Assembly: GCA_029432815.1 (NCBI GenBank)
Contig: JAROBA010000003.1
Coordinates: 1-64,000 of the forward strand
Reading direction: 5' to 3'
Length of the DNA: 64,000 nucleotides
DNA from: Pontiellaceae bacterium B1224
GTDB lineage: Bacteria; Verrucomicrobiota; Kiritimatiellia; Kiritimatiellales; Pontiellaceae
The notes under the pieces are model-generated. The model was not told the origin of the DNA. It saw nothing but the letters and a program-made list of their open reading frames with translations, and searched no databases. This document shows positions 27,480 through 37,083 of this stretch, piece by piece. Position numbers and translations under genes: made by a program. Position 1 is the first letter of the stretch. Every line of letters begins with the position of its first letter.

Positions 27480-27670
27480 AAAGAGCGTGCAGCTAGGCTG
27501 ATCCACCATCTAAAGATGGAATTGTTCTTTGGTGTAAAAGATTCGTTTTTATTGAAATATTTCTAAAAAAGGAATAAACAGGACAGTGCTGATTCATTAA
27601 TTTGAACATGTTTTTCAGAAGTAACTTGTTTGATAAAACGAACTTACTAACCCGAACGCGGAGCGTCACC

Positions 27671-28720: not shown

Positions 28721-28831
28721 CCAGGATATCCCGCGCAAAGGTGTAGAGAAAGTAGAGCTGCAGTTCTTTGCCGCTTAGAGTGAGGCAGTTTAATCCCCCG
28801 CGTCTTCGGATTGCCCCAAACCCAAAAAAAC

Positions 28832-28869
28832 GCACGCTATCCCAAACTTTTGCACGCTATGCGAAACTT
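28832..28869 (+). promoter_or_regulatory. direct-repeat operator candidate for the AraC/PocR regulator
   Basis: GCACGCTATCCCAAACTT (28832-28849) and GCACGCTATGCGAAACTT (28852-28869) match at 16 of 18 positions, in direct orientation with a 20-base period (two helical turns). This is the geometry of AraC-family half-sites. They lie 77-114 bases before the ATG of the giant protein gene. I see no confident -35/-10 pair downstream. Confidence 0.6.
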
Positions 28870-28945
28870 GTTTTTGCGAGCAAAATGTCTTTGTTCGAAA
28901 GGGACTCAGTACTCCCATTTTAGTGCTAATAGCAGAGGGATCATT

Positions 28946-31900
28946 ATGAAAATAAAAACCAAATCACCATTCGTTATTCGTCATATGGCCTTCCTTTTGT
29001 TTGCTTCCTTACTGCTGTTCATTGTTCCGCGAGCGCTTGCTCAGACCGATTGGGGCTCGGCATTGCAGTTTGATGGGACCGATGATTATGTCGAATCCAG
29101 CGGTATCAATCTGGCAAACTCTTCCTTCACCATCGAAGCATTGATCAAGCGGGATAGCATAGGGACATCTGATTGCATTATTGGTCAAGGAACCGCTGCG
29201 GCTAACATGGGGCTGCACTTTGCATTCCGGGCTAATAATGTGTTTACCCTTGCCTTTTATTCTGACGATTTAAACACGGCCGATACGTATACTGACTATG
29301 GCTGGCATCACTGGGCAGGTACCTATGACATAAGTGGAAGGGTTCGGAGTCTCTATAGGGACGGAATACTGGTTGCGAATGACATAGCCACTGCTAATTA
29401 TAAAGGTTTGGGACCTTTGCGCATTGGAAGCCGTTCGTTCGATGCTGATTATATATTTGCAGGACAGATTGATGAAGTTCGCATCTGGAATGTGGCGCGA
29501 ACGGATGCGGAGATTAAAGCCAATATGACACAACCACTTTCCGGAGACGAATCCGGACTTATTGCTTACTACCGATTAGATGAAGAAGCAGGTAGTGTGG
29601 CATATGATAATTCCTCCAACAATTTTGATGGAACGCTGGTCAATGGCCCAGATTGGGTTGCTTCGTCCGCACCTTTCTTAACGCTGCCAGCGGATAATTT
29701 CACCCCCACCACGGCCAGATTGAATGCCTTGATCAATCCCAATGGGAGATCAACTGACGCTTGGTTCGAATGGGGTACGAACACAACCTTTGGCTGCAGT
29801 ACGCAAATAGTGAATTTGGGCGGCGGAACTAACGTTGTACCAATAACTGCTGCACTTACAGGATTGATTCCACAACTGACCTATCACTTTCGCGCCGTAG
29901 CATCCAACAGTCTTGGTGTTGCATATGGCCAATCAAAAACCTTTAGTCTCTGGGAAGCAACTAATCTGGTCGATAGCGGGGCCGGATCCTTGCGTAACCT
30001 GATCGCCATTGCGGATGCAGGATCAGCTATTATCGTGACCAACATCGGCACCCTCACGCTGACCAGTGGAGAACTTATAATCAATAAAGATCTCAGCATC
30101 GTGGGGCCGGGCGCTGATCTATTCGCCATCAGCGGAAATAACAGCAGCCGAGTCTTTAATATTGCCAACGGTGCTGCCGTCAACATTTCGGGCCTGACCA
30201 TTCGAGACGGGCGCAGCCCCGTCAGCCAGCCGGGAGGCGGCATTTACAACAACGGAACTCTGACCTTGAAGGATTGCAGTGTAATAGCCAATCACGCCGG
30301 TGATGGTAGCACTGGCGGTGCTGGAGGCAATGGTGGAGGTATATACAATCACACTTCCGGAATCTTCACGGCTAACCGTTGCACATTCAGCGGTAACTAC
30401 AGCGGTAACGGTGGAACCGGTTCTAACGGAGGAAACGCTTCCGGGGGGAGTGGAAATGATGGAGGCGACGGTGGGGACGGTGGTAATGGTGGGAACGGTG
30501 GCGCGGTTTACTCCACTGGAATTCAACTCACTCTGGACTCTTCTACGCTGAGTGGAAATTTTACCGGCTCAGGTGGTACTGGAGGAAAGGGAGGAAATGG
30601 CGGGTGGGGTGCAATCAGCGGCGGTGATGGTGGCGATGGTGGCGATGGCGGCGACGGCGGCGACGGCGGCGGCATTTTCGCCAATGGTATTGTGAAGTTT
30701 GAAAGTAGCACGGTAAGCGGCAATCTGGTCGGCAACGGTGGAAACGGTGGCGGTAGCGGATGGGGTGCAGAGGGCGGATTGTCGGATGGCAGTTCCGGTT
30801 CATCAGGCACCAGCGGTGTTGCAGGAGATGGCGGCGGAGTGAACAATCAGCTCGGTGCTCAGGCGCAACTTGTGAATACGATAGTAGCTTTGAATGTCGA
30901 TTCCTCCGGCCCCGACGACGTTGCAGGGACATTCACATCCCTCGGCCATAACCTTATCGGTAATACGATTGGGAGCTCCGGCTTTGGATCGGGTGATTTG
31001 CTCAATACAAATCCTATGCTTGGTTCACTGGCTGATAACGGCGGCTCAACGTTGACGCTGACGCCTTTGCCGGACAGTCCGGTTATCAATTCGGGCGACA
31101 ACGCGTATGCGACTACGACGGATCAGCGTGGGTTACCTCGCATAGCTGCCGGCCAGACAGATATTGGTGCCGTTGAATATCAATACTGGCCTATGGTCAC
31201 GACGTTACCGGCCAGCGAGGTTAGTGCCACCGGAGCGGTTGCCTGTGCAACTTTGCACGGTACAGTGAACCCGGATGGGCCCATTCCTACGACGGCTTGG
31301 TTTGAGTGGGAAGCCGGTATTGGTGAGGGATACTCCCGTCGAACACCTTCCTTCTCTATCGGGACCGGCACCACTGCCGTTCCTGTTACAGCTGAGTTGA
31401 CCGGACTCTCCGCAGATGTAACGTATCGCTATCGGCTGGTAGCCACGAATTCAATCAATTGCATTGTCAACGGTGCTGAGATGTGTTTCTGGGCTCCCCT
31501 TGTGAGCCTTTTTGGAGAGAATTCTCTAATCGGGACCTGTTATGATCCGTTCGTGGATCCCGGCGCATTTGTTAACAGCTCGGCGGCCCAAATTGCTGCG
31601 GGGTCTAGTCACTGTCTGGCCCTTAAAACGGATGGCGGAGTCGTCGGTTGGGGATCAAACGATTTCGGTGAGACCACCATCCCTCAGATTGCACGTAGCA
31701 ACATTGTGGCGATTGCTGCAGGAGGTTCTGAGTATGAAAGCCTAAGTTTGGCACTCAAAGCCGATGGCGGTGTCGTGGGCTGGGGAGCTAATTATTACGC
31801 TATTCCATCGGCCGCCACCAGCAACATCGTGGCGATCACCGCTGGTGGAACTTATTTTGGGTGCTTTGGTCTTGCCCTTAACACGAGTGGAGGAGTGGTG

Positions 31901-34156
31901 GCTTGGGGTGAAATTCCCTCAGTCCCCTCGACTGCGACCAATAATGTAGTCGCGATTGCCGCGGCAGGCGAAGATTTCGAAGGGTTTGGTCTGGCACTTA
32001 AAGAAAATGGAGGCGTTGTGAGCTGGGGGCAAAGCTATTCCGGAGCGACAGCTATTCCTGAGGAAGCAACCAGCAACGTCGTGGCGATAGCTGCGGGTGG
32101 AAGTTATTATGGTGGCTTCGGTCTGGCGCTCAAGACGAGTGGCGGAGTTATCGGTTGGGGTGAAAATTATTTTGGTCAGATCAGCATACCCTCAAGCGCG
32201 ACGAATGACGTCATAGCTATTGCTGCTGGGCCGACGCACAGCCTGGCACTTAAGAGTAATGGAGAGGTGGTAGGTTGGGGCGCAAACCAGCACGGCCAAA
32301 CCACCATTCCTCCAGATGCTACCACTGATGTGATTGCGATTGCGGCGGGAGGCAACGATGCTAGAGGCTTCAGTCTGGCGCTTAAAGCCGATGGTAGAGT
32401 TATTGGCTGGGGGTATAACTATGATGGAGTGACCTCTATACCCGATTCATTAACCGTACCCAATACTGGCAATCCAGTTATTAGTGGTTTTGTAGATGTA
32501 CATGTTCCAGGGATCTACACGTTGACGTACTCATCAACTAATGTATATGGAGCTGTGGGGCTGGCCACACGAATCGTGGAGATCATCCCAACGACCCCGC
32601 TCGTCAGTACGCGTTTGACCACAGAGGTGAGTTCCTCCGGGGCGAGGCTTTATGGCGTAGTGAATCCACGAGGTGCTGATACCGACGCATGGTTTGAATA
32701 TGGACTGTCGACGAAATATGGCAACAGTACGACCCCTGTACATCTCGTTGGAGTACCCGCTGCAGATCAAGATATCATTAGCTCCCTTGAGGACCTGCTT
32801 CCCTGGATGACCTATCATTACCGGGCGGTCGCTTCGAACAGCCTGGGTCGGATTAACGGTCCGGACATGACCTTTACTTTAGAGGGGCCTTTTGGTGCTG
32901 CCCCAGTGTTGTTGGCGTTGAGTGACATTATTCTGTCGCAAGGCGATGAAACGGGTATTTCTCTCACGATGTCTCCCCTTGGGCTGGAGGTGAGGGTTGC
33001 CTGTGATAACCCTGTTCTGTTGCCAGCGGGCAGTCTCGCGCTCAGCAGCTCCGGCTCCGGCGGTTGGCTGAATATTTCTCCAGACCCCGCGCATTCCGGT
33101 TCTGCTCGGATCAGGGTGACGGTCAGCGACGGTATGTATGCAGCCAGCCAGACCTTTACCCTGACGGTTACTCCATACGATACCGATCCGGATCGGCTGC
33201 TTTATATCGAAGATGCGCAGTTGGTATCCGGCGAGGCTTGGCGATTCCGCATGATGGATTATGGTTCGGCATCGACCAATTATTTGGTGGAATACCGGCC
33301 AGACCTTTCTCCAACCAACAGCTGGAGTCCTGCTGCCAATACCATCGATCTGGGCAACGGTTTATACGAGGTTGATATCGGATCGTATCCAGATGATGCC
33401 GGATTCTACCGAATCAGAGGATTTCGTGGCATGTCGGCAGGGCTTAGCTCGGCGGATGTCAGCGGGGACGAGGGATCGCTTGTCGGCCCGGTGGTCGTGT
33501 TCAATGGTATTCATACTGGCACAATCAATTATTCCTGGACCGATTTGACGGGGATATCTTACTCGGGAAGTGTGGATGTCGCCGGCACCACGGCTGTCAT
33601 TCCTATGCCGGTGATCGACAATATTGGAATCGATCAGATTCAGCATCTCACGTTGCAAATTCAAGTGGGAACCGGCTACGCCCTTGGCGAGACAGGTTCA
33701 GGAACCGTAACTATCGAGGAAAATGATGCAGAGTGGCTGGGTGTTTTGCGCGGCGAACAATCCTCGCTCGGTTTTGTTTTGAAAATCCAGCAAACGGACG
33801 GCTGCCTCCAGGGTGAAATTCAGAGTAAGGGCTTTGGATTTTTCCCGACTAATACGCTGGTGGAATTGAGCTTTACGGAGAATGACTTCCATGTCGTGGC
33901 AACAAACATTCCGTTGCCGTCCCTGGTTGGAAGCCCAGTATTCAGCACACTCCACTATCTGGATCTACGGCTGGACGCGAGCAATGGTGAAATGAATCAG
34001 ACCGTTGATGAGTCCTTGATTCAGGGGGTGGCAACCATGGTCAGTGTAGTGCCGGGACGACCGGAACTGGATACTGTGATCTCCAACATGTTCCGTTTGG
34101 CAAAAACACCTACGCCTGCATCCACAAATGAAGTCCCTCTTTATTCCGCACCTTAG
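28946..34156 (+). CDS. giant secreted multidomain protein (LamG, beta-helix, Fn3-like, 7-blade RCC1 propeller)
   Basis: A 1736-residue exported protein; AGAGGG 5 bases before 28946 sets the start, and a signal peptide spans about 1-32. In order: a LamG/concanavalin-like domain (about 33-215); an Fn3-like module (about 250-335); a right-handed beta-helix with Gly/Asp-rich loops (about 340-745, ending with the DNGGSTLTLTPLPDSPVINSG motif); a second Fn3-like module (about 750-845); an Ig-like (DUF5011-type) domain split by seven RCC1-type repeats (about 851-1215); a third Fn3-like module (about 1218-1310); cadherin-like and Calx-beta-like segments to about 1600; and an unknown C-terminus. It probably acts outside the cell, in binding polymers or surfaces. 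It lies 20 bases upstream of its likely partner gene. No exact palindrome copies occur. Confidence 0.85.
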   Translation: MKIKTKSPFVIRHMAFLLFASLLLFIVPRALAQTDWGSALQFDGTDDYVESSGINLANSSFTIEALIKRDSIGTSDCIIGQGTAAANMGLHFAFRANNVFTLAFYSDDLNTADTYTDYGWHHWAGTYDISGRVRSLYRDGILVANDIATANYKGLGPLRIGSRSFDADYIFAGQIDEVRIWNVARTDAEIKANMTQPLSGDESGLIAYYRLDEEAGSVAYDNSSNNFDGTLVNGPDWVASSAPFLTLPADNFTPTTARLNALINPNGRSTDAWFEWGTNTTFGCSTQIVNLGGGTNVVPITAALTGLIPQLTYHFRAVASNSLGVAYGQSKTFSLWEATNLVDSGAGSLRNLIAIADAGSAIIVTNIGTLTLTSGELIINKDLSIVGPGADLFAISGNNSSRVFNIANGAAVNISGLTIRDGRSPVSQPGGGIYNNGTLTLKDCSVIANHAGDGSTGGAGGNGGGIYNHTSGIFTANRCTFSGNYSGNGGTGSNGGNASGGSGNDGGDGGDGGNGGNGGAVYSTGIQLTLDSSTLSGNFTGSGGTGGKGGNGGWGAISGGDGGDGGDGGDGGDGGGIFANGIVKFESSTVSGNLVGNGGNGGGSGWGAEGGLSDGSSGSSGTSGVAGDGGGVNNQLGAQAQLVNTIVALNVDSSGPDDVAGTFTSLGHNLIGNTIGSSGFGSGDLLNTNPMLGSLADNGGSTLTLTPLPDSPVINSGDNAYATTTDQRGLPRIAAGQTDIGAVEYQYWPMVTTLPASEVSATGAVACATLHGTVNPDGPIPTTAWFEWEAGIGEGYSRRTPSFSIGTGTTAVPVTAELTGLSADVTYRYRLVATNSINCIVNGAEMCFWAPLVSLFGENSLIGTCYDPFVDPGAFVNSSAAQIAAGSSHCLALKTDGGVVGWGSNDFGETTIPQIARSNIVAIAAGGSEYESLSLALKADGGVVGWGANYYAIPSAATSNIVAITAGGTYFGCFGLALNTSGGVVAWGEIPSVPSTATNNVVAIAAAGEDFEGFGLALKENGGVVSWGQSYSGATAIPEEATSNVVAIAAGGSYYGGFGLALKTSGGVIGWGENYFGQISIPSSATNDVIAIAAGPTHSLALKSNGEVVGWGANQHGQTTIPPDATTDVIAIAAGGNDARGFSLALKADGRVIGWGYNYDGVTSIPDSLTVPNTGNPVISGFVDVHVPGIYTLTYSSTNVYGAVGLATRIVEIIPTTPLVSTRLTTEVSSSGARLYGVVNPRGADTDAWFEYGLSTKYGNSTTPVHLVGVPAADQDIISSLEDLLPWMTYHYRAVASNSLGRINGPDMTFTLEGPFGAAPVLLALSDIILSQGDETGISLTMSPLGLEVRVACDNPVLLPAGSLALSSSGSGGWLNISPDPAHSGSARIRVTVSDGMYAASQTFTLTVTPYDTDPDRLLYIEDAQLVSGEAWRFRMMDYGSASTNYLVEYRPDLSPTNSWSPAANTIDLGNGLYEVDIGSYPDDAGFYRIRGFRGMSAGLSSADVSGDEGSLVGPVVVFNGIHTGTINYSWTDLTGISYSGSVDVAGTTAVIPMPVIDNIGIDQIQHLTLQIQVGTGYALGETGSGTVTIEENDAEWLGVLRGEQSSLGFVLKIQQTDGCLQGEIQSKGFGFFPTNTLVELSFTENDFHVVATNIPLPSLVGSPVFSTLHYLDLRLDASNGEMNQTVDESLIQGVATMVSVVPGRPELDTVISNMFRLAKTPTPASTNEVPLYSAP

Positions 34157-34176: not shown

Positions 34177-37083
34177 ATGAAAACACTGAATCCGATTATA
34201 AAAATAGACGAATCACGAAATGCATTAAAGAGGCGGATCCCGGCATTGCCCATTCACTTCTGCATTATGTCTTTCGAGATTAAAACTGTTCTTTTTTGTT
34301 TTCTTTGCATGATGACCCTGGCCACTGCCTTTGGCCAAATCAACTACAGTAATGAAACGAATGTTGCCGATAACGTAAAGCAAATGCTCTATTGGTCAGA
34401 TGCTCAATCAACGAACAAAAACGTTGCGGCATTTCGCTACAAGGTACTGCTCTACACGAATGAATTGGGCGGAGTTCGGGCGAATACTCCGAATATGATA
34501 AACCTCTATGGAGAAAATGAACGGGATCGATCTCATGAAGCAGAGCAGCATCTTAAGCTCGGGCTGGAGAACAATCCCTCCAGCGTAATTCTGGGCGGTC
34601 TCCTCCTCGATATCTACTATGACCGTGCCGTAGCAGAAAATATTTTTGCCCGAAACGCATGGGTGGATGCTGAGGTAATTCCTTTTGATATCACGCCGGT
34701 TCCTCCGAATTTTGTAATCGATTCACAAATATCAGCTTACGTATCGGTATTATCATTATATGAAAATGCATTCGCCACCTATGCCGCTGTGCTGACCAAT
34801 CAGCTCAATACAGGCACCTCTTTGGACGGACCCTTGGGCTATCGGGTTTTCCGACAACGGGTACCGGAAAGGAGCCTTACGCCCGGGAACTATCTCAGTA
34901 ACGGGGTGCCAACGTCCGTCATTGGCGAAACGGGACCGCTCTTCAGTGGTTACAAAGACCTTGTGTTGCTATACGGAATTCTACGCGATCAGGCTCGCGT
35001 AGCTAACTCGCTGACACGATTATACATTGCGCGCGGTTGGGTGACTGATCTTGCTGATGCCAAAACTCTTGTTACCAGAAATCAACGCTATCTCTTCCTT
35101 CATGGAAACTTGCTGCGAGGAATCTTTCCGGACCTTGATATCAGCTCCGTCGATCCTGCTTCGGGCTTGGCTGAAGCTGAGAGCAGTTGGCAAAAAGAGT
35201 TGTCAGAACTCGAACAGCTCCGACAGCTTATTGAAGGTGAGGCAAATGTGCTCGGGTTCGCCCCGGATTTCCTGATGCTGATCGGCAAGCAGTCCACGTA
35301 CTTCGACTCGTTCGATTCATATAAAAGCCTGCTGGACCCCGGCAAAGCGTCTTCTCGATTAAAACTGGCGATGGATGCGCTTGCCGATGCGCGAGATGCT
35401 GAAGAGGACTACCATGGGTTTCAAGAGCAATTGACGAGCCAGTTGGAGGATATCACAGACTCCGCAGGTGACCGACTTAGCGAAATTGTTGGTGAGTATC
35501 CTTATCCCGGTGGAGGCGATGACACACCACAGGAAGGAAGCGAAGCGTGGTTACAACAAAACAGCATCGAGATTGCCAAACTTCAGATTGAAAGAAACAA
35601 AACAGAAATCGCCAACCTCAAGCAGGAAATTCAGATCGAAATCGATCGTCGGGCGCAGGAAGAGGGCATCAACAACGCCATAGCATCTGTTCAGATTGAC
35701 TATGGCAACAAACAGGCGGGTCTAACGGAAAGTATTGGGCATATTGAAGCGGCTCAGAAACTTTGTGATGCCGCGGCTGAAGCGGCCGGCGCGGATTGGA
35801 CAAGTCCCTGGAGTGCGGGTGCCGATCTGGCAAATGGTGTTGCACAAGCTGCCGCCGAAGAAATGAAAGGCCAGCTTAATGCAGAGAAAGAGCGGCTGGG
35901 TGGACAGGAAGCTGCCGAGATCACTTCGCTGAACGATGATCTTCTGGATATAAACAGTAAGGCCCTTATAAAAAATCTTTGGCTTCGGATGAACACGCTT
36001 GCCATAGATTCTCAGGAAGCTGCGCTTCAGTTGACGCAGGAGCGGGGCCGTCTTTCGGCGCTTGCTCGTGAAAAAGAGCAGCTCGAAGTACGTATCGCTG
36101 AAAGCGACGCTTCGTTATCCGGGCGCTACTTTGCTGATCCGTCACATCGCTTGAATATGCGATCTGAACAGGTACGGGCAAATCTACATTTTACGGAAGC
36201 GAGGAAATGGCTGTTTTTCATGATGCGTGCGTTGGAATACAAATGGAATGAAACCTTTGAGACAACCTATCCAGGAAACGATGGCTGGGAATGGAATAGC
36301 TGGAGCGTCTTTGAACTGCGTAACGCCGAAGAACTTGAAAGCTTCTATAACGCAATGGTTACCTTCGATGATGGACATACTCTCATACCGGATGATTATT
36401 ATGATTGGTTTTCGATACGGGAAAATTTCTTCGGTTATATCGATGATCCGAGTGCAACATATGCGGATCCCGTCACCAAAGCTCCCGTCGATGCCATTCA
36501 GGCCTTCCGAAGCGAGCTGAGTTTGCTGACAACCTCCAACCCAGGATATGTCACGCTCGAATTCAGTACCGTTCGTTCGGGAGGATCTTCTGGAACCTTT
36601 TTCAGAGGGCCGAGATTCAACCCAGACACTGGCGGCATCATCGAGAAAGGAACTTACCTGGACAAGATAGAGTGGATGAAGGTCAACCTACCCGGCGATC
36701 ACCCTTCAGGCGTCGAGTCGCTTGGCGGTAGTCTTCGATACGGTGGTACGAGCTATATTCGGAATCCCGAGCACGGAGGTTATGACCCACTCAAACCAGA
36801 CCGTCTAACGGATGAGTTTTCTTCCTTTAGCTCCCGCTTTTGGTTTGGTTCCGGTGGTGAGTGGCAGTTCACAGATGAACAGACGGCCACGATCACTATG
36901 ACCTTAAGCGAACAAGAACGCACGCCTCCCTCCGTTCAGGAAATAAATGTTTTCAAGGAGCGGAGTGTTGCTACCTCAAAATGGACATTGCTCATTCCAA
37001 TCGAAGGGGCTGCGAGCGTTGATATCGATAATCTGAACGACGTGGAAATCGAATTCTTCCACCAAGCGTTCACTAGACAGTAA
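34177..37083 (+). CDS. exported coiled-coil protein, partner of the giant protein
   Basis: A 968-residue protein of no family I recognise. AAAGGAG 7 bases before ATG fixes the start. A long basic N-region precedes a hydrophobic core (about residues 36-52, ending TAFGQ), a plausible extended signal peptide. The middle (about 390-690) is helical with heptad-like Glu/Lys/Leu runs (for example IERNKTEIANLKQEIQIEID) and an Ala-rich stretch, predicted coiled coil. The C-terminal quarter is beta-rich with many Gly, Ser and aromatic residues. The helical core followed by a beta-rich end loosely recalls large secreted toxins, but no diagnostic motif supports that. Its 20-base spacing from the giant gene indicates one operon. 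Confidence 0.75.
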   Translation: MKTLNPIIKIDESRNALKRRIPALPIHFCIMSFEIKTVLFCFLCMMTLATAFGQINYSNETNVADNVKQMLYWSDAQSTNKNVAAFRYKVLLYTNELGGVRANTPNMINLYGENERDRSHEAEQHLKLGLENNPSSVILGGLLLDIYYDRAVAENIFARNAWVDAEVIPFDITPVPPNFVIDSQISAYVSVLSLYENAFATYAAVLTNQLNTGTSLDGPLGYRVFRQRVPERSLTPGNYLSNGVPTSVIGETGPLFSGYKDLVLLYGILRDQARVANSLTRLYIARGWVTDLADAKTLVTRNQRYLFLHGNLLRGIFPDLDISSVDPASGLAEAESSWQKELSELEQLRQLIEGEANVLGFAPDFLMLIGKQSTYFDSFDSYKSLLDPGKASSRLKLAMDALADARDAEEDYHGFQEQLTSQLEDITDSAGDRLSEIVGEYPYPGGGDDTPQEGSEAWLQQNSIEIAKLQIERNKTEIANLKQEIQIEIDRRAQEEGINNAIASVQIDYGNKQAGLTESIGHIEAAQKLCDAAAEAAGADWTSPWSAGADLANGVAQAAAEEMKGQLNAEKERLGGQEAAEITSLNDDLLDINSKALIKNLWLRMNTLAIDSQEAALQLTQERGRLSALAREKEQLEVRIAESDASLSGRYFADPSHRLNMRSEQVRANLHFTEARKWLFFMMRALEYKWNETFETTYPGNDGWEWNSWSVFELRNAEELESFYNAMVTFDDGHTLIPDDYYDWFSIRENFFGYIDDPSATYADPVTKAPVDAIQAFRSELSLLTTSNPGYVTLEFSTVRSGGSSGTFFRGPRFNPDTGGIIEKGTYLDKIEWMKVNLPGDHPSGVESLGGSLRYGGTSYIRNPEHGGYDPLKPDRLTDEFSSFSSRFWFGSGGEWQFTDEQTATITMTLSEQERTPPSVQEINVFKERSVATSKWTLLIPIEGAASVDIDNLNDVEIEFFHQAFTRQ

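Follow-up and report, generated by a model that had tools for sequence, protein, structure and literature searches.

Does a short direct repeat between the gene for an AraC-family regulator and the gene for a very large exported protein act as the operator of that regulator? An earlier note on the 64-kb stretch of DNA analysed here (the window) had described two half-sites between these genes and had read them as an AraC-type operator bound by the next-door protein. The two copies are present exactly as described, 16/18 identical at a period of exactly 20, and both take the form GCAC-N7-(C/G)AAACTT (Table 1). We consider the repeat a candidate AraC-type direct-repeat operator of the adjacent regulator, with a probability of roughly 0.78, because it is unique, has a format like that of the Rob and SoxS sites, and falls in a block that is kept beside the orthologous regulator of a relative (genome G004).

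Table 1. Coordinates of the features around the direct repeat, as positions in the window
Feature	Positions	Strand	Details
AraC-family regulator, 349 aa	27671..28720	+	PocR-like sensor, predicted long helix, AraC domain with two helix-turn-helix motifs
39-bp block kept 3' of the orthologous regulator in G004	28824..28862	+	31/39 identical; starts with a tract of seven A
Distal half-site, GCAC-N7-CAAACTT	28832..28849	+	GCACGCTATCCCAAACTT
Proximal half-site, GCAC-N7-GAAACTT	28852..28869	+	GCACGCTATGCGAAACTT
Leader with presumed promoter	28870..28945	+	No sigma-70 consensus promoter or terminator found
Large exported protein, 1736 aa, presumed target	28946..34156	+	Signal peptide, LamG, choice-of-anchor Q, RCC1 repeats
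968-aa partner protein, no family assigned	34177..37083	+	20-bp gap 3' of the large gene

The repeat is rare and most likely intergenic

The repeat lies 111 bp 3' of the regulator's stop codon and 76 bp 5' of ATG 28946. Judged by eye on its signal peptide, the large gene most likely starts at this ATG, so the repeat would be intergenic; the reading frame that opens at TTG 28811 and crosses the repeat is an unlikely gene start because the signal peptide begins at 28946. A coding N-terminal extension over the repeat was rejected, as the frames of the window and G004 (by eye) were similar over about four residues at most and the 5' part of the conserved block has a stop in the matching G004 frame. 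An RNA element, terminator or attenuator was rejected, as the fold z-score was -0.29 and neither a terminator-like site nor an Rfam match up to E 1 was found.

We scanned for pairs of 18-mers with at least 16 matching positions at a period of 18-24. The repeat was the sole pair of its type in the window (n=1), and the same scan found none in 60 first-order Markov simulations of the window (mean 0.0), none in 11 AraC-type paralog loci of the own genome and none in the 15-kb G004 locus L031. The earlier note had named random occurrence of the half-site through the genome as the finding that would speak against an operator. What we found was different: in the own genome (5.38 Mb), nothing else matches the half-site perfectly or with one mismatch, and its three half-sites with two mismatches all lie within open reading frames. 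At up to three mismatches, the reversed control pattern had 123 matches and the half-site 98 (the two window copies counted), which speaks against enrichment genome-wide. Nor is it enriched in three relatives at this limit, since the reversed control gave the higher count in each (G004, 86 against 164; G021, 101 against 131; G002, 36 against 73). A genome-wide regulon was rejected, as pattern searches of the own genome gave no second operator without mismatch.

Seven A directly precede the CGCAC of the first half-site, and the core word of the window's intergenic region is AAACTTTTGCAC. The first half-site contains CCCAAA, and the same word recurs 20 bp further upstream (window 28810-28829), where a degenerate third half-site is possible.

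The adjacent regulator and its relatives

The regulator gene starts at ATG 27671, with an in-frame TTG at 27602. Of the name PocR-AraC regulator, under which the protein had been introduced, the second part stood: the C-terminal domain was over the Pfam cut-off (HTH_18, PF12833, 3.1e-21), and all 15 matches of a PDB sequence search were to this C-terminal part and to AraC-type domains (best 3.2e-15). The first part did not stand as a family assignment, as the PocR sensor (PF10114) reached 16.2 bits in the regulator (E 0.0091) and 17.4 bits in the G004 ortholog, below the Pfam cut-off of 23.9, and NF047788 gave 64.3 bits against a cut-off of 500. By its sequence, the sensor resembles PocR, and we call it PocR-like only. 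The long helix between the domains is predicted in a low-confidence structure model (mean pLDDT 63.7, pTM 0.40; 77-84 over residues 211-260 of the modelled part).

With the first 283 residues as query, regulator matches were found in 2/28 genus genomes, the own genome and G004. The two proteins are 58% identical over their whole length, and the DNA-binding part is better kept (79/109 identical) than the sensor (87/155). A search of the class (E up to 1e-8) found the regulator in 3/345 genomes, namely these two and a distant homolog in G321. A profile search of the phylum returned the own genome alone among the 387 genomes drawn, G004 and G321 being evidently outside the draw, and no match was found in plasmids at E up to 1e-20. 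Three distant AraC relatives from a contig search were left out of the comparison. Autoregulation was rejected, as the best scores of the repeat against the regulators' upstream regions were 6.5 to 8 and shuffles of longer stretches average 7.8.

Part of the repeat is kept beside the G004 ortholog

In a best-match scan of the two intergenic regions 3' of the regulators, the block listed in Table 1, whose counterpart begins 32 bp after the stop codon of the G004 ortholog, scored 19, compared with a mean of 7.8 (sd 1.0, maximum 12.5) for 300 dinucleotide shuffles of both regions. As further controls, the 11 paralog loci scored at most 11.5, and the regions 5' of large-gene homologs in five genomes scored at most 12. 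No other result speaks as strongly for an operator of the adjacent regulator as the G004 block; the block comes from one ortholog pair, in which part of the repeat is kept, and the footprint is a single comparison because G004 has the only close ortholog. The core pattern CAAACTTnTGCACnCTATGC, drawn up after both sequences had been seen, occurs without mismatch once in the own genome, once in G004 and in none of the other 26/28 genus genomes. With two mismatches, it was found in G010, G019 and G022, inside reading frames (12 of the 30 returned loci viewed).

Two of the four boxes of the G004 site are degenerate: the distal half-site has GTCC in place of the GCAC box and keeps CCAAACTT, and the proximal half-site keeps GCAC-CTATGC and has lost AAACTT. 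The conserved core therefore spans the end of the first half-site and the start of the second, and the phase of the monomer site is thus ambiguous; a single 20-bp site, CAAACTTnTGCACnCTATGC at 28843-28862, is possible instead of a tandem pair. The earlier note had proposed a search for GCACGCTAT-N3-AAACTT at orthologous loci. Taken literally, this search fails in G004, where the two sites differ from the pattern at 4 and 6 positions and are for that reason also missed at up to three mismatches.

A chance repeat, or a neutral tandem duplication without function, is highly improbable. Two copies with two base differences could come from one 20-bp slippage, and the full repeat is absent in G004, as a neutral origin would allow; such an origin leaves the conserved block in G004 unexplained. 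It is unlikely that the repeat serves a different regulator or that the adjacent one represses at it. The genomes that hold the core are the same 2/28 that hold the regulator, which argues for the adjacent protein. In favour of repression, PocR was made a repressor by promoter redesign, as quoted from PMC11264322. In favour of activation, G004 has a -10-like TATACT at a distance of 19 bp from the end of the conserved core, where an activator overlapping the -35 would need it.

Comparison with known operators

In the parts of PMC4514859 that we draw on, the Rob site is quoted as GCAC-N7-CAA and the SoxS site as GCAC-N7-TAAA. The window half-site has the same GCAC box, an A-rich second box and the same 7-bp gap; unlike these sites, which are quoted as single motifs, it occurs twice in tandem and its second box runs on as AAACTT. 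This format and the G004 block together support the operator reading of the earlier note. The operators of XylS/Pm (TGCA-N6-GGNTA-N6, repeated) and MekR (CACC-N5-CTTCAA-N6, repeated), as quoted in the same source, resemble the repeat in having two tandem half-sites, each made of two short boxes about one turn apart. They differ in their box sequences and in a period of 21 (summed from the quoted spacings) against 20, and the window operator is a candidate known from sequence alone. For MtlR, an A-tract next to the first repeat is quoted (PMC4514859).

SphR of Pseudomonas aeruginosa is quoted as binding 15-bp half-sites that are 6-8 bp apart, with a period of 21-23 (PMC3900636). The window shares with it two direct-repeat half-sites and very few predicted sites per genome; the sequence is another, and SphR has three promoters and the period of 21-23 against 20. 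The earlier note gave about 20-21 bp as the period of AraC-family sites; the 20 of the window is near the 21-23 of the quoted examples and just below it. The PocR operators of Salmonella (Pcob and Ppdu) are described as two boxes, one of 20 bp and one of 48 bp, separated by 52 bp, a layout that its authors, as quoted, term distinctive within the AraC family (PMC11264322). The window regulator is like PocR in joining a PocR-type sensor to an AraC domain (the resemblance to NF047788 being far below the cut-off), and its presumed site is unlike these operators in being a short tandem pair.

PMC3162504 mentions none of binding site, direct repeat, palindrom-, motif and operator. Among the matches listed in the AraC literature on Kiritimatiell- and Verrucomicrobi-, no title concerned the regulator-operator system described here. 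Overall, the repeat has the direct-repeat layout of AraC/XylS sites (half-sites of about 15-18 bp, period of about 20-23 bp), and a site is kept beside the only close ortholog, before a different gene.

An unlikely alternative: a mobile-element end

In some insertion sequences, the transposase binds tandem subterminal repeats of about 20-22 bp, and the window repeat might be a solitary remnant of such an end. We regard this as very unlikely. What favours it is an element-like end in G012, present in four copies, with 22-bp repeats and similar words (AAACTTCAACGCAC); three of the copies are near contig ends and one is directly upstream of a large-gene homolog. The copies lie at C164:82-119, C310:7405-7442, C311:74-111 (L106) and C106:10729-10766, and this element-like end is absent from the other 27 genus genomes.

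An insertion sequence would be marked by copies in the genome or by a place beside a transposase. The window repeat, however, is a single copy at 0 or 1 mismatch, and five IS21-type loci (four in G004 and one in G012), in stretches that probably cover one end each, lack its words. IS21-type ends were rejected, as the examined loci do not match the repeat. The own genome has three IstB-type matches, the best of them (38.4 bits) over positions 95-195 only; they are probably other ATPases. In addition, 31/39 identity next to orthologous regulators, in intergenic DNA that has otherwise diverged, is not what one would expect of a remnant.

The presumed target genes differ between relatives

The 968-aa gene is presumably co-transcribed with the large gene, and its product matched neither a Pfam nor an NCBIfam family. 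Homologs were found in 6/58 genomes searched (own included); the other five are genus members (G002, G004, G009, G012 and G021), with proteins 46-52% identical. In all five, a large-protein homolog adjoins the 968-aa homolog (the 968-aa gene is split across contigs in G012 and G009). Four of these five assemblies (59 to 94% complete) gave no regulator match. In the fifth, G004, the regulator is on a different contig from the secreted pair and is followed by a gene for a 156-aa lipoprotein-like protein. These arrangements weaken the proposal of the earlier note that regulator and targets form one unit.

The lipoprotein-like gene (L031 6962-7432) has five further matches in G004, whereas a search of the other 27 genus genomes (E up to 0.001) gave none. 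Its start residues are like those of the large protein (MKTRTKW, L031 6962-6986, and MKIKTKS, window 28946-28970), and the proteins otherwise look unrelated; the likeness could be accidental or left over from a common 5' end. A half-site with one mismatch, GCACGCCATCGGAAACTT, was among the matches listed for G021 (C2:1314001-1314018, about L033 16002-16019), a genome in which the regulator is missing. This half-site, 3.7 kb downstream of the 968-aa homolog, is probably a chance match, since it is inside a predicted reading frame.

A gene that we take to be phosphopentomutase (deoB) follows the 968-aa homolog in G021, G004 and G009; in G012 another gene takes this place, and the G002 contig stops inside the gene. 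The 968-aa gene is present once in the own genome, whose deoB homolog is on another contig; the last 278 bp of that contig upstream of deoB do not (by eye) show the secreted pair. The N-terminal 234 residues of the large protein, LamG included, matched none of the genus loci compared (E up to 1e-4). We infer that the secreted-protein operon moved behind the regulator in this lineage.

A lead comes from G321, which belongs to another family of the class. Its distant regulator homolog (24% identical in the sensor) is followed by a gene for a secreted protein of 958 aa, one stretch of which is weakly similar (E 0.001). The sequence CACGGTTATTCCAAAGTTCCGACGGTT, with a 20-bp period, lies 21 bp after the regulator's stop, and a period-20 pair of ACGGTT flanks CCAAAGTT. 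In a gapped comparison, 4/300 mononucleotide shuffles scored as high; the ungapped score of 7.5 was at chance level, and the period-20 self-match of 11/18 was within the shuffles (mean 9.0, maximum 14). As a third footprint, this is suggestive only, a lead and not proof.

Proposed mechanism and implications

We propose that the AraC-family regulator, whose gene lies just upstream, binds the two repeats as an operator made of tandem half-sites. Each 20-bp half-site would hold one DNA-binding domain, which would contact GCAC-CTAT and then, about one helical turn further, AAACTT; the two domains would follow each other head to tail along the same face of the DNA. From there, the regulator would bring RNA polymerase to a weak promoter located between 28870 and about 28905 and thereby switch on the genes for the large secreted protein and its 968-aa partner, with a small molecule that the PocR-like domain would sense as the controlling signal. 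Both activation and control by a ligand are plausible.

Judging from the relatives, the conserved unit may be the regulator with its operator, with a changing target gene. We tentatively suggest, at somewhat less than even odds, a portable sensor-operator cassette that is kept together as the secreted-protein gene behind it is exchanged: the 1736-aa LamG/RCC1 and 968-aa genes here, a small lipoprotein in G004 and a 958-aa secreted protein in G321. Under the same tentative suggestion, the operon captured here would be the one beside deoB in several relatives.

The repeat gives an orphan regulator from a little-studied group of bacteria a concrete candidate operator, and predicts that one dedicated local regulator switches the expression of a very large secreted protein. 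The mechanism would be a textbook one, an ordinary type of gene switch; the twist is that the gene behind it differs between two bacteria. It may also be a modest case of a regulator and its operator staying paired when the target gene behind them changes.
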